This document shows, in pieces, positions 33,291 to 56,022 of a stretch of DNA of 64,000 nt. Position 1 is the stretch's first letter; each line of letters begins with the position of its first letter. The translations under genes and the position numbers were made by a program. The stretch covers positions 124,001-188,000 of the forward strand of contig NZ_FNIR01000011.1 in assembly GCF_900103975.1 (NCBI RefSeq), in the 5' to 3' direction. Below the pieces are notes generated by a model that saw only the letters and a program-made list of their open reading frames with translations, had not been told where the DNA came from and did not search any database. The stretch is from Klenkia soli. GTDB taxonomy: Bacteria > Actinomycetota > Actinomycetes > Mycobacteriales > Geodermatophilaceae.

Positions 33291-33563
33291 GTGCCCAAGT
33301 CCAAGGTGCGCAAGAAGTCGGTGTACACCCCGCCGGAGGGGGTGCTGCCCTCCAGCGCCACCCGGGCGCGCGCCGCGCAGCCCAGCCCCCGCTGGTACGC
33401 CCCCCTGATGATCGCGCTGATGCTGGTCGGGCTGATCTGGATCGTCGTCTACTACGTGGCCGGCGACAAGATCCCGTTCATGGTCTCGCTGTCGGCGTGG
33501 AACTTCGCGATCGGCTTCGGCGCCATGGTCGCCGGGCTGGTCATGAGCATGCGCTGGCGCTGA
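33291..33563 (+). CDS. crgA: cell division protein CrgA
   Basis: A 90-residue protein with two transmembrane helices. It shows the family's features: an N-terminal basic KSKVRKKSVYTPP, then SPRWYAPLMIALMLVGLIWI and the closing helix WNFAIGFGAMVAGLVMSMRW. CrgA is specific to actinobacteria and coordinates FtsZ, FtsI and other division proteins. GTG at 33291 with GAGGAG upstream. It converges on the CAAX protease gene with only six bases between the stops. Confidence 0.95.
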   Translation: MPKSKVRKKSVYTPPEGVLPSSATRARAAQPSPRWYAPLMIALMLVGLIWIVVYYVAGDKIPFMVSLSAWNFAIGFGAMVAGLVMSMRWR

Positions 33564-33569
33564 GCGCCC

Positions 33570-34352
33570 TCAGTCGTCCAGCTGGGGCCGCTCGGCCTCG
33601 ATCGAGGGCTGGTCGTCGAACAGCGCGGGCAGGAAGCGCAGCATGAGCGTCGACCAGACGAGGTGGGTCAGCACCGGCGCCTGGATCCCCCCGGTGATCC
33701 TGCGCTGCCACCCGAACAGGGCGCCCATCACCACCGAGGCCAGGACCAGCGCCGGGTTGCGGGTCGCCGTCGTGGCCAGCGCGTAGACCGCGGTGGACTT
33801 CGCGACCGGGTGGGTCGTGCCGGCCGCGGCGTAGAGCGCCCCCCGGAAGAAGACCTCCTCGGCCATGCCGTTGGCCAGCGTGGTGGTGGCGACCAGCGCC
33901 GGGTTGCCCTGGTGGGCGTAGCGCAGCACCCGGGTGACCGCGGCGTTGAGGACCGGGATCCGGCGGGCCACCAGAGCAGCGCTGTAGAACACCCCGAAGA
34001 TGCCGACCCCGGTGACGACCGGTGTGATCACCGGTCGGTGCAGCACCTCCTTCGAGGACCGCATCCACCCCAGGTGGAGCGGACCCGAGGCGATGCCGCC
34101 GGCGACCCACGTGCCGGCGACGGCCATCGTCAGGCCGTAGAACTCCTTGGAGTCCGGCTTCTGGGACAGCGAGACCCCCAGCAGCCCGGCCCCGAGCACC
34201 GAGACCCCGGCGGTGACCCGCCTGCGGCGCCGGAAGGCCTGGTCGGACTCGCGGTGGTCGCGGGGTACCGGGTCGATCAGCCAGGGCGGTGCGTGGCGGG
34301 CCAGGGCCGCCACGGTGCGGTCCAGCGGCCCGCTGGCCCGCCGTCGGCTCAC
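33570..34352 (-). CDS. CPBP family (CAAX-like) intramembrane protease
   Basis: A 260-residue polytopic protein. The motif MAEEVFFRGALYA (EExxxR) and a later conserved His segment (APVLTHLVWSTLML) mark the type II CAAX prenyl-protease/bacteriocin-processing fold. In bacteria without prenylated proteins these act as intramembrane proteases or accessory factors of unknown substrate. GTG at 34352 overlaps the stop of the NmrA-like gene (GTGA). Confidence 0.87.
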   Translation of the reverse strand: MSRRRASGPLDRTVAALARHAPPWLIDPVPRDHRESDQAFRRRRRVTAGVSVLGAGLLGVSLSQKPDSKEFYGLTMAVAGTWVAGGIASGPLHLGWMRSSKEVLHRPVITPVVTGVGIFGVFYSAALVARRIPVLNAAVTRVLRYAHQGNPALVATTTLANGMAEEVFFRGALYAAAGTTHPVAKSTAVYALATTATRNPALVLASVVMGALFGWQRRITGGIQAPVLTHLVWSTLMLRFLPALFDDQPSIEAERPQLDD

Positions 34353-35296
34353 GAGCGCGCGCCCCGGGCCAGCAGACCGCCGTGCCGGGGGCTGTCGCCG
34401 GCGGCCTCCCGGCGCTCGGCGGCACGTTCGCCCAGCGCGGTGAGCACCGCCTGGTCGTAGCCCATCGGCTCGAACGGGACCACCTGCCGGATGCTGTCGT
34501 CCTTCACGACCACCTCGTTGGTCATCGAGTCGATCAGCGACTTGCCGGTCTGCAGGTCGACGTCGGTCACCAGGGACAGCCAGCGGGCCGACAGCTGCGG
34601 GGTCAGGAACGGCACGGGGACGACGAACATGTGGCGGCCCTGGATCTCGGCCACCCGGGTCATCATCTCCAGGTACTCCAGGACGTCGGGGCCGCCGACC
34701 TCGAACACCCGCCCCTCGGCCTCGGGGGCCTCCAGCACACCCACCAGGTACCGGACGACGTCGGCGACGGCGATCGGCTGGGTCCGGGTGTGCACCCAGC
34801 GCGGGGTGATCATGGCCGGCAGGTGGGCGACCAGCTGCCGGGTCAGCTCCCAGGACACCCCGCCGTGGCCCACGACGATGCCGGCGCGCAGCACGGTCAC
34901 CGGCACCCCGCCCTCGCCCAGCAGCTGCTCGACCTCGCGGCGGCTGCGCAGGTGGTCGGAGAGGTCGTCGGCGTCCTCGCCCAGCCCGCCCAGGTAGATG
35001 ATCCGGCGCACCCCGGCGTCGGCGGCGGCGCGACCGAACGACCGGGCAGCCGCGGCGTCCTCCTGCACGAAGTCGGCGTCGCCCAGGCTGTGCACCAGGT
35101 AGTAGGCGGCGTCGCAGCCCTCCAGCGCACTCCGCAGCGACGCCTCGTCGGAGACGTCGCCGGCGACCGCCTCCCCGGCGCCGCGGTACTTCTCCGGACG
35201 CCGGGTCATCGCCCGCACCCGGTGCCCCTCCTCGACCAGGGCCGGCGCCAGCCGACCACCCACGAACCCGGACGCTCCAGTCACCAGAACCTGCAC
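34349..35296 (-). CDS. NAD(P)-binding NmrA/atypical SDR protein
   Basis: A 315-residue atypical short-chain dehydrogenase. Its N-terminus VQVLVTGASGFVGGRLAPAL has the TGxxGxxG nucleotide motif, and YLGGLGEDADDLSDHLRSRR follows in place of the usual YxxxK. The family (YwnB/NmrA-like, often annotated as nucleoside-diphosphate-sugar epimerase) includes redox sensors and real oxidoreductases. A close paralogue is encoded at 46137-47056. GTG at 35296. Upstream is a 477-bp non-coding stretch with DnaA-box-like sequences. Confidence 0.82.
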   Translation of the reverse strand: MQVLVTGASGFVGGRLAPALVEEGHRVRAMTRRPEKYRGAGEAVAGDVSDEASLRSALEGCDAAYYLVHSLGDADFVQEDAAAARSFGRAAADAGVRRIIYLGGLGEDADDLSDHLRSRREVEQLLGEGGVPVTVLRAGIVVGHGGVSWELTRQLVAHLPAMITPRWVHTRTQPIAVADVVRYLVGVLEAPEAEGRVFEVGGPDVLEYLEMMTRVAEIQGRHMFVVPVPFLTPQLSARWLSLVTDVDLQTGKSLIDSMTNEVVVKDDSIRQVVPFEPMGYDQAVLTALGERAAERREAAGDSPRHGGLLARGARS

Positions 35297-35773
35297 ACGT
35301 CCAGCGTCGCGGTTGCCGGCCGGCACCGCAGTCCGAGTGCGACGAACCGGTCCGGTCGGTGTCGAGATGTCGACCACGTCCGCGGTCCCGACGTGTGCAC
35401 AGGCCGACGACCTGATCCACAACGCCGATGACCGACCACCCCCAGGTTTGTCCACCGCGTGTGGAGGGAGCCGAGCCGCGCACCCGCCTCCGACCTGCAC
35501 CGTTGTCCTCCGTGTGACGGATGGGGCAGCAGGTCCACCCGCGTAACTACATCCCTGTTCTTCTGTCCCCACCTGTGCACACAGGTGTGGACGAATCGAC
35601 TCCAGGACCGTGACCACCCCGTCCGGGGGTCGGTCACCGGGCGTGTCCGGAGCGTGATCACGCATGGTGAGGACGACGAACGTCCAGGTCGGACGGCGCG
35701 TCCCGGGGTCGGCACCCCGCCCTGTGGACAACCGGGTGCGCGCTGTGGAGGGACCGCCTGGGAGGCTGGCCCC
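35297..35773. other. non-coding gap with a DnaA-box-like cluster
   Basis: No gene is seen in these 477 bp. They hold a perfect actinobacterial DnaA box on the minus strand (TGTGGACAA, 35723-35731) and near matches TTGTCCACC (35448-35456), TGATCCACA (35413-35421) and TGTGGACGA (35586-35594). They also hold the palindrome CCTGTGCACACAGG (35572-35585). GGACGAATCG-CTCC (35589) is shared with the dnaA-dnaN gap (about 54025). Promoters for both flanking divergent genes must also be here. Confidence 0.5.
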
Positions 35774-36202
35774 GTGCAGTGGTCCACCCGACGCGCCGAG
35801 ACGCTCGCGGCCGGCGCCGTGGCGGTCCTCCTGGGGGCCGGGGCACTCCTGGTCGACCAGCTCGGGCGGGTGCTCGTCGGCGCCGCCGCCCTGCTGCTGC
35901 TCGGGGTCGTCGTCCGGGACCTGGTCCTGCGACCGCGGCTGCGGGCGGACGAGGGGCAGGTCGTCGTCCGATCCCTGACCGGCACCACGGTCATCCCCCG
36001 CGACCGCCTGCTGTCCCGGGTCCGCACCGCGCGGCGGCTCGGGCTGCGCACCACCACCCTCGAGCTCGAGGACACCGCCGACGACACCGTGCTGGTGGTG
36101 CTCGGCCGCCGGGACCTCGGCGCCGACCCGGCGCAGGTGGGCGCCGAGGTCCTGGGCCACCGTCCCGGCCAGCCGGGACCGGGCCGGCGCAGACCGGGCT
36201 AG
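35774..36202 (+). CDS. PH-domain membrane protein (Rv0010c-like)
   Basis: A 142-residue protein with two N-terminal hydrophobic helices (about 10-48) and a small bacterial PH-like domain with QVVVRSLTGTTVIPRDRLLS and TTTLELEDTADDTVLVVLGR. Orthologues of this type (low-molecular-weight antigen CFP-6 family) sit in the same neighbourhood, near ppiA and crgA, in mycobacteria. The function is unknown. GTG at 35774. It shares a CTAG stop (36199-36202) with the convergent rhomboid gene. Confidence 0.82.
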   Translation: MQWSTRRAETLAAGAVAVLLGAGALLVDQLGRVLVGAAALLLLGVVVRDLVLRPRLRADEGQVVVRSLTGTTVIPRDRLLSRVRTARRLGLRTTTLELEDTADDTVLVVLGRRDLGADPAQVGAEVLGHRPGQPGPGRRRPG

Positions 36203-53720: not shown

Positions 53721-54306
53721 CTCGTCGTCCACCCCTGCTCGTCGTCGTACCGGTCCTGCTGCGGGCGACAGTCTCCCCTGCCACGGAGCCCGGCGTCGAA
53801 TCCCCCTCCTGCGGCCTGCGCTGTTGTTCCCGGGCCTCCCGGTCGACACGTCGACCGGCCCTGCACACCCAGTGTGTGGTTCGAGAACTCCTCGTCAGAC
53901 ATCCCTCATCACCGTCATCACAGGTGTGGGTACTGGGGACCGGGGCCGTCCGCGCAGGTCATCGGGGGTGCAGGCCTGTTCGCACGGTGTGGGCCGGTGA
54001 CCGTCCACCTGGGGTCGACATGGGGACGAATCGGCTCCCGTCCACCGGTGACCGCCCCGCTCCACCCCTGGTCCACCCTCTCTCCCGGGTCCACCCCCGG
54101 TCCGTCCCCAGGGCACCCCTCCGGGGGACGGAGCTGGGGGGAAGCTGGGTACGCAGCCGGTCGACATGGGGATGCGGGTTCCCCAACCTGTGCACAGCTC
54201 TGGGGACAAGTCGACGGAGCCGACGAAGTCGACGCTGTGGGTCCGGCCGCGTCGCAGGGTCCCGGTGCGCGCGGAGCGTGTGCCGGGGGGCGACGTGGTC
54301 CTTCTC
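53721..54306. other. candidate replication origin segment (dnaA-dnaN gap)
   Basis: No gene is seen in these 586 bp. GTCCACC occurs four times in the same orientation (54003, 54040, 54071, 54089), TGGGGACAA (54201-54209) is one base from a DnaA box, and GTCGACATGGGG occurs twice (54014-54025 and 54160-54171). In Streptomyces and Mycobacterium oriC lies exactly in this gap. Boxes are more degenerate and GC-rich than in those species, and I see no AT-rich unwinding element. Confidence 0.6.
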
Positions 54307-56022
54307 CTACTGGCGGGCGCGCGACTTGATGCGGGCGGTGAGCTCCGTGACCTGGGTGTAGGTGGCGCGGCGCTCGCCCATCAAGCCGGTGATCTTCTTG
54401 ACCGCGTGCATGACCGTGGTGTGGTCCTTGCCGCCGAACGAGGCCCCGATGCGCGGCAGCGACAGCTCGGTGAGCTCGCGGCACAGGTACATGGCGATCT
54501 GCCGGGCGTTGACCAGCGTGCGCGACCGGTTGGCGCCCTGCAGCTCCTCCATCGTCACGGAGAAGTACTCGGCGGTGGCGGCCATGATGATCGCCGCGGT
54601 GATCTGCGGGCCCTGCTCGTCGCTGATCAGGTCCTTGAGCACGAGCTCGGCCAGCGCGAGGTCGACCGGCTGCTTGTTCAGGCTGGCGAAGGCGGTGACC
54701 CGGATCAGTGCGCCCTCGAGCTCGCGGATGTTGGTCTGCACCTTGCTGGCGATGAACTCCAGCACCGGGTCGGGGGCCTGCAACCGCTCGCCGTAGGCCT
54801 TCTTGCGCAGGATCGCGATGCGGGTCTCGAGGTCGGGCGCCTGGACGTCGGTGATCAGGCCCCACTCGAAGCGGGTGCGCAGCCGGTCCTCCAGCGTCGT
54901 CAGCTTCTTCGGCGGGCGGTCGCTGGTGATGACGATCTGCTTGCTGGCGTTGTGCAGCGTGTTGAAGGTGTGGAAGAACTCCTCCTGGGTGCGCTCGGCG
55001 CGCTCCAGGAACTGGATGTCGTCGATCAGCAGGAAGTCGATGTCCCGGTAGCGACGGCGGAAGTCCTCGGCCCGGCCGGAGTGCACCAGGTTGATGAACT
55101 CGTTGGTGAACTCCTCGGTCGAGACGTACCGGACCCGCACGTCGGGGAACATGCGTGCCGCGTAGTGCCCGATCGCGTGCAGCAGGTGGGTCTTGCCCAG
55201 CCCGGAGTCGCCGTAGACGAACAGCGGGTTGTAGGCCCGCGCCGGCGCCTCGGCCACCGCGACGGCCGCGGCGTGGGCGAACCGGTTGCTGTTGCCGATC
55301 ACGAAGCTGTCGAAGACGTACTTGGGGTTCAGGCCCAGGTCACCGCCGCTGGAGCGACGGTCGCCGAACTGGGACGGCGCGCCGGTGCCCCGGCCGCCGG
55401 ACGAGCCGGACGTGCTGCTGTCGTCGGCGTCCCACGGGGCCGGGCGCCGGGGGTCGCTGCGGGGGGAGTCCCAGGGGGCCCCGTTGCCGCGGGACCAGTC
55501 GCGGCCGTCACCGGACTCGGGCAGCCAGACGTCGCTGCGGGCGGCATCGGTGCGCACCCCGAAGGCGCTGCGGCCGTCGTCCTCCTGGGCGCGGGCAGCA
55601 CGGTCCTCGGCGTCCCGGTCGCGCTCGGCCCGCTCGCGGGCCTCGGCGTCCCGCTGGTCGCGGTCGGTGTGGTCCTCGCGGTCCCACTCGGACCGCCGCG
55701 GGGGGACGTCGCGGGCCGGTGTCTCGCGGACCGGGGGGACGTCGTCGGCGGGGACGGACGGCGGCACGTCCTCCAGCTGGACGGCGACCTTGGTCTCCCG
55801 GCCGAACTCGGCGGTCAGCGCATCGGTCAGCGCCGTGCGGATGCGGGACTCCAGCACCGTCTGGGTGAACTCGTTGGGCGCGGCCAGCACGAAGACGCCC
55901 TCGACCAGGCCCAGCGGGCGGGTCAGGTTCAGCATGGCGTTCTGCTGACGGGTCAGGTCACCGGACAGCCGTGCCCGGATCCGGTCCCAGACCGGTCCCA
56001 GCTCGCTGGTGGTGTCGACCAT
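54307..56022 (-). CDS. dnaA: chromosomal replication initiator DnaA
   Basis: A 571-residue initiator. Domain I is 1-90. Domain II is a long charged linker (about 90-228) rich in Asp, Arg and Glu. The AAA+ domain III has Walker [12 protein letters not shown] (271-281) and Walker B LLIDDIQF (331-338). Domain IV ends with the DnaA-box recognition signature [15 protein letters not shown] (530-544). ATG at 56022 gives [20 protein letters not shown]. It is flanked on both sides by DnaA-box-like clusters. Confidence 0.98.

Follow-up and report, generated by a model that had tools for sequence, protein, structure and literature searches.

The non-coding gap of 477 bp between an NAD(P)-binding gene and a PH-domain gene of Klenkia soli probably holds one copy of a DnaA-binding control site that stands on its own and is ancient in Actinomycetota; this site normally lies just 3' of crgA and near oriC. 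We identified it in a contiguous stretch of 64,000 nucleotides (hereafter the window; all coordinates refer to it unless stated otherwise), and binding of DnaA to the element in Klenkia and its family is predicted from the sequence. How replication is timed in Actinobacteria, including mycobacteria and Streptomyces, is an open question, and to our knowledge these bacteria lack the IHF/Fis/SeqA/Hda system of Escherichia coli. A short element of DnaA boxes, retained at a single position through much of the phylum, is a ready experimental target. In the open-licence literature we found no report of the wide conservation of this site or of the dyad described below; an earlier report elsewhere is possible.

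DnaA boxes in the gap

The gap contained four DnaA boxes with at most one mismatch to TTGTCCACA/TTATCCACA, where 0.14 were expected from 300 shuffles, and 12 with at most two mismatches, where 1.9 were expected. Neither count was reached in any of the 300 shuffles, and we therefore regard the cluster as real. These four are part of the 13 boxes at this stringency in the whole window. The corresponding counts were one and six in the dnaA-dnaN gap (over 53850–54306), and two and seven in the rpmH-dnaA gap; the 477-bp gap is the densest of the three DnaA-box clusters, above both gaps that flank dnaA. The preliminary description had placed the cluster about 18 kb from dnaA, in agreement with the 18.5 kb that separate it from this gene at 54307–56022 (−). 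The perfect box that it named, TTGTCCACA at 35723–35731 (−), is the sole exact copy within the window, and the near matches were likewise present: TTGTCCACC at 35448 (+), TCGTCCACA at 35586 (−) and TGATCCACA at 35413 (+), the last with one mismatch to TTATCCACA. The proposed palindrome CCTGTGCACACAGG is not a perfect one; it forms the centre of an inverted repeat whose 13-nt arms (35565–35577 and 35580–35592) are 92% complementary across a 2-nt spacer. The features of the locus are collected in Table 1.

Table 1. Coordinates of the element, its boxes and its neighbours in the window
Feature	Position	Strand	Basis
Entire non-coding gap, from the NAD(P)-binding gene (−) to the PH-domain gene (+)	35297..35773		sequence
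Conserved core of the element	35392..35603	+	31-sequence alignment A1, profile R1
Box-like motif TGTGCACA, near-invariant within the family	35394..35401	+	alignment A1
DnaA-box-like TGATCCACA; TCCACA invariant in 31/31	35413..35421	+	alignment A1, box count
TTGTCCACC followed by inverted TGTGGA; TTGTCCAC and TGTGGA invariant in 31/31	35448..35465	+	alignment A1
CCGACCTGCA, own copy of the family motif CTGACCTGCG	35490..35499	+	alignment A1
Klenkia version of the 18-bp dyad, AACTACATCCCTGTTCTT, with a degenerate right arm	35545..35562	+	cross-family alignment
Inverted repeat GTCCCCACCTGTG-CA-CACAGGTGTGGAC with two box-like halves	35565..35592		inverted-repeat search
DnaA box TCGTCCACA, one mismatch, the element's inverted box	35586..35594	−	box scan
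Exact DnaA box TTGTCCACA, outside the deep core	35723..35731	−	box scan, own-genus loci
crgA (cell division), usual upstream neighbour of the element	33294..33563	+	PF06781, E 8e-37
CAAX-protease (Rce1-like) gene, start approximate	33570..34370	−	PF02517
NAD(P)-binding gene, between crgA and the element	34349..35296	−	neighbour comparison
PH-domain membrane protein gene (bPH_6)	35774..36202	+	PF10756
dnaA-dnaN gap, probable oriC, for comparison only; dnaN start inferred	53721..54306		family conservation

The exact box was found in five of nine loci of the own genus and at the same place in none of 20 loci from other genera, one of which (L026) carried an exact box at another place in the core. 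The exact box is thus the least conserved of the boxes, and the conserved ones are the imperfect ones. Across the whole genome the pattern TTGTSCACA matched 16 times, compared with 14 for its reversed control, so the exact box alone is unremarkable. A simple consensus scan limited to sigma-70-type sites revealed no sigma-70-like promoter or terminator-like site in the gap, and no Rfam family came near its gathering score there. The family profile described below also gave a weak reversed match at 35564–35761 (−; E 3.5e-4), which overlaps the right half of the element, so that the element is partly symmetrical.

Conservation of the element and its place beside crgA

A DNA search of 97 relatives matched 61 of them at E ≤ 1e-3, and the matches in other genera of the family (f1, presumably the Geodermatophilaceae) centred on 35436–35600. 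We aligned 31 family copies (alignment A1), having dropped L001 (dnaA) and L031 (NAD gene only); mean column identity over the core was 78%. The strings TCCACA, TTGTCCAC, TGTGGA and TCCCCA were invariant in this alignment, and GTAACTACA was nearly so. At E ≤ 0.01 a profile of 212 positions made from it (R1) picked up 105 of the 112 family genomes, with 100 of these at E ≤ 3e-16 and five weak, and had no match in the remaining seven. In the 20 loci from other genera (L011–L030) the non-coding core was 69–85% identical in its matched part, and in the six of them where a PH protein was found this was 47–56% identical to the own copy. Conservation of the boxes among relatives had been proposed beforehand as a check on the finding, and the boxes proved to be conserved, which favours it. 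The string TGACCTGCG(G), at 35490–35499 inside the element, recurred in the own family, in family f23 and in a number of Streptomyces loci, L295 among them.

The segment adjoins crgA in the loci from other genera, with DUF881 and trpG beyond, and a PH gene was recognised on its far side in 6 of the 20. The CAAX-protease and NAD(P)-binding genes stood beside the element in all nine own-genus loci and in none of those 20: two genus-specific genes came between crgA and the element, and the element survived the separation. Order-wide, R1 matched 112 of 298 genomes at E ≤ 0.01; no match outside the family was stronger than 1e-15, and those found there were weak and partial. We inspected 20 weaker loci, 19 of them from other families and one from our own: 15 lay at the crgA place, between the ppiA/PH side and crgA/DUF881/trpG, three lay at dnaA/dnaN and two could not be placed. 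This led us to choose crgA as the anchor for wider comparison.

A search of 118 class genomes found CrgA in 112. We examined 69 crgA loci (29 + 40) from genomes with CrgA, and 65 had at least one box within 600 bp after the gene, the four with none belonging to families f16, f18, f40 and f41. Altogether 182 boxes fell in the 600 bp after crgA, as against 12 in the 600 bp before its stop. They were concentrated close to the gene: the first 300 bp, available for 67 loci, held 175 boxes (shuffled mean 5.0, maximum 10, 20 shuffles), including 62 exact ones where shuffling gave 0.3, and the next 300 bp (66 loci) held two. All 80 named Streptomyces crgA loci had two or more exact boxes in the 400 bp that follow crgA, compared with five boxes in total in the upstream control of the same 80 loci, and the Streptomyces element holds a string similar to CCGACCTGCA.

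A second profile (R2, 62 positions), made from a cross-family alignment with at most three loci per family (A3), matched 112 of 118 whole class genomes at E ≤ 0.05. Among the best 99 of these 112, the best match lay −1 to 223 bp after crgA in 87, elsewhere in nine, and in a genome without crgA in three. Our own genome counts among the nine, since two intervening genes place its best match 1982 bp after crgA. Of the crgA-bearing genomes, 63 had no part in R2 training; 39 of these had their match near the gene, eight had it elsewhere and 16 had none among the matches listed. Phylum-wide, R2 matched 47 of 100 genomes at E ≤ 1e-3, including 39 of the 91 from outside the class. Twenty out-of-class loci were drawn from these 39 genomes, mostly the strongest matches; a crgA-like ORF lay within 400 bp upstream in 16 (at 321–374 bp in four of them), on the other side in one, and was not found in three, two of which lay upstream of dnaE, as judged with a crgA profile that included six of those same loci.

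What follows crgA and the element is less constant. By rough ORF calls the next gene is convergent in 44 of 66 class loci and co-directional in 22, and ten next genes that we checked, six rhomboid and two thiolase genes (convergent), one zinc-ribbon gene and one PH gene, differed in kind from family to family.

The 18-bp dyad and its other settings

Alignment across families revealed a composite plan, in which a dyad, AATYACAC-N2-GTGTRATT, stands a few bases before a direct box TCCMCA, with an inverted box TGTGGAYAAC further on and often an additional direct box between the two. Of 87 loci, 72 passed a dyad score and 15 failed; L210, which is not a true dyad, and L242, a borderline case, passed and were both excluded from A3. 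We saw no convincing dyad in three loci of family f31 or six of family f33, all of which retained their boxes; that f33 is Streptomyces follows from the named loci. In Klenkia the dyad is degenerate. When the dyad pattern was searched with at most one mismatch in eight genomes, a symmetrical site counting twice, it matched in seven, 0–12 times per genome; the reversed control did as well or better in two (13 against 12 in G063, 2 against 0 in G387), so the pattern alone is not specific there.

We inspected 20 R2 loci chosen for lying away from crgA. In 14 of them the dyad and box stood 56–208 bp upstream of nrdR on the same strand; the remaining six (families f40, f41 and f47) were without nrdR, one of them lying 1.6 kb from crgA. 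At nrdR the dyad adjoins a string such as ACATCTAGTA, which we take to resemble an NrdR box. The nrdR promoter of our own genome (G000:C23; about 1367–1411 of locus L294) has the same order as these 14 loci with a weaker dyad: dyad-like GTTACAGAGATGTCGTT, then box CGTCCACAGG, beside CAACATCTAGTA. Dyad and DnaA boxes also occurred upstream of dnaE in two out-of-class loci (L388, about 2551–2604, and L394, with the match on the (−) strand). Separately, a near-perfect dyad was seen upstream of a WhiB-family gene (about 1501–1514 of L272), with no DnaA box in the adjoining sequence shown.

As possible owners of the dyad we considered the NrdR box and the BldD, GlxR/CRP and WhiA motifs, and none appeared to fit. 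The MtrA half-site is given as n-A/G-T-a-A-C-a (PMC6265350), and GTAAC in the family copy partly resembles it, which leaves MtrA a possible owner. We tentatively suggest, while holding it doubtful, that the dyad is the site of an unrecognised actinobacterial factor acting with DnaA, and that the pair marks a small replication regulon of crgA, nrdR and sometimes dnaE. If so, the pair would join a DnaA control site at crgA, dNTP supply through the nrdR promoter and, in some lineages, the polymerase through the dnaE promoter. IHF and Fis are the cofactors for datA and DARS in E. coli; on this view the crgA site would play the part of datA/DARS throughout the phylum, with a cofactor of its own.

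Possible functions and comparison with known systems

DnaA has been located at the mycobacterial Rv0010c-Rv0011c site by IDAP-seq, EMSA and M. smegmatis ChIP-seq (PMC7738170; Hicks et al. 2020), and this site is among five regions, rpmH-dnaA and oriC included, that were bound both in vitro and by ChIP-seq (PMC7738170). Mutations in its inverted box pair gave longer cells and higher isoniazid resistance, as dnaA mutations do (PMC7738170). The authors leave the function of the site open and saw no obvious correspondence in other bacterial species (PMC7738170). This DnaA binding, the wide conservation of the boxes and the frequent setting between convergent genes lead us to read the element as a DnaA control site. 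Several DnaA molecules would assemble on it, perhaps with a second protein on the dyad. The element lies 14–18 kb from the dnaA-dnaN gap in four family chromosomes and 18 kb from it here; a site so near oriC would double early in the replication round and thereby alter the usable DnaA free for oriC. The near-oriC position, measured in one family, may also be passive, riding on conserved gene order.

It is possible, if short of probable, that such a control site acts as a sink or inactivator in the sense of datA, and this appears somewhat likelier than reactivation of the DARS kind: the place near oriC favours an early-doubling sink, whereas the phenotype of the mycobacterial mutants favours a helper. 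Against a simple sink, the rate of initiation is said in the discussion of PMC7738170 to be unchanged in the site mutants, which such a sink would not predict. A DARS-like form of the same explanation, in which the boxes would promote release of ADP, we consider unlikely. DARS sites of E. coli are far from oriC; on the other hand, the mycobacterial site mutants resemble dnaA mutants, as expected if the site helps DnaA (PMC7738170), and a group of three boxes, two direct and one inverted (0, +13, +23), recurs in several families, with the own copy differing; DARS cores have three DnaA boxes (PMC4245941), on which ADP release depends.

We think it rather unlikely that the element is instead a transcriptional switch, with DnaA and a protein bound to the dyad regulating crgA, the PH gene or an antisense transcript. 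The element does lie upstream of a co-directional gene in our own genome, in certain genera elsewhere in the family (PH in 6 of 20 loci) and in family f8 (6 of 6), a promoter role is possible in the 22 of 66 class loci with a co-directional next gene, and such a role is natural for the dyad and box at nrdR and dnaE. However, the element remains constant while the next gene is convergent in two-thirds of the class loci and of different kinds; an element retained next to changing downstream genes, and frequently located between gene ends, is unlikely to serve flanking promoters. In addition, the sigma-70 scan of our own gap found no promoter-like site, and expression of the genes flanking Rv0010c-Rv0011c is reported as unchanged in M. 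tuberculosis dnaA mutants (PMC7738170).

It is very improbable that the element belongs to a dispersed origin, serves as an alternative one or is an origin remnant. In Actinobacteria oriC is usually next to dnaA or dnaN, and the element adjoins neither gene. The dnaA-dnaN gap is conserved across 25 aligned family genomes, our own among them, and holds box-like strings as well as an AT-richer stretch. The box vocabulary of the element is like that of oriC, in that R1 weakly matched the dnaA-dnaN gap in three family genomes (G044, G048 and G052). The segment that the preliminary description found to be shared with the dnaA-dnaN gap, GGACGAATCG-R-CTCC, does lie at exactly two places of the window, 35589 and 54024; we did not accept homology on the strength of this 15-mer, which is kept in few relatives and, being absent from both gaps in most of those shown, is weak evidence of common origin. 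Also within the dnaA-dnaN gap, at 54244–54304, lies a dispersed repeat of about 60 bp, copies of which, about 80–95% identical, occur in several places in our own genome and in relatives.

Strand composition was examined in 400 kb of each of four single-contig family chromosomes. The minimum of the raw cumulative GC skew fell near 31–36 kb in the window and about 5 kb from the element in G005, but about 140–158 kb away in the other three chromosomes. At fourfold sites, minus-strand genes between the element and dnaA had a skew of −0.11 to −0.18 (errors 0.03–0.04) in the four chromosomes and leading-strand genes left of the element a less negative one of −0.06 to −0.10, as an origin at the element might give; this lean is within about one to two standard errors, with 9–12 genes per genome, and leading and lagging genes right of dnaA showed no consistent difference. 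Oligomer skews mostly leaned to dnaA, but they follow gene strand. With a weak fourfold-site lean and oligomers leaning the other way, we rejected an origin at the gap as deduced from the raw window skew and used skew as evidence in neither direction. Among the roles first suggested for the gap, off-origin DnaA control, whether datA- or DARS-like, is the best-supported kind, and the origin remnant is not supported, since the dnaA-dnaN gap is conserved, the 15-mer is not retained by most relatives, and an element that is old, maintained and under selection is no remnant. A chance cluster in a long gap, which the near-equality of genome-wide box and reversed-control matches might have suggested, is refuted by the shuffles and by strong conservation in 100 of 112 family genomes and across class and phylum.

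Read as a DnaA control site, the element can be set beside several known systems. In E. coli, datA promotes IHF-dependent hydrolysis of DnaA-bound ATP, and its deletion leads to over-initiation. The gap resembles datA as a DnaA-box cluster outside oriC and in its possible site for a second protein (compare IHF), and differs in its neighbour genes. With DARS1 and DARS2 it would share a small group of boxes and perhaps a site at which another protein binds.

Streptomyces DnaA-box clusters outside oriC were reportedly described by Smulczyk-Krawczyszyn et al. in 2006; the strongest of them is said to be D78, at another locus, and the cluster H69 may be the crgA site. Off-origin clusters near oriC restrain initiation in Streptomyces (as cited in PMC5742627 and PMC4585315). 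Like these published clusters, the Klenkia boxes are off-origin, and a cluster stands beside crgA in every Streptomyces locus of our set; the Streptomyces crgA cluster is without the dyad.

The closest counterpart is mycobacterial. We take Rv0011c to be crgA and Rv0010c to be the PH gene. Gene order and the plan of its boxes suggest that the Klenkia element is the counterpart of the Rv0010c-Rv0011c DnaA site. Both have the neighbourhood of crgA, site and PH gene, with two extra genes on the crgA side in Klenkia, and each carries, close to oriC, a box cluster that includes an inverted pair. The plan of the Klenkia site is that of the crgA-adjacent site of other families (alignment A3, with R2 matches at the same place), and the loci of f8, probably Mycobacteriaceae, carry the same dyad-plus-box plan. 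The inverted repeat is about 180 bp upstream of the PH start in Klenkia and 65 bp upstream of Rv0010c in mycobacteria (PMC7738170), and Klenkia differs further in its family-specific boxes, its extra exact box and a DnaA binding that is predicted. The puzzling Rv0010c-Rv0011c site thereby gains a wide evolutionary frame and, in the dyad, a second conserved module for which a protein can be sought.
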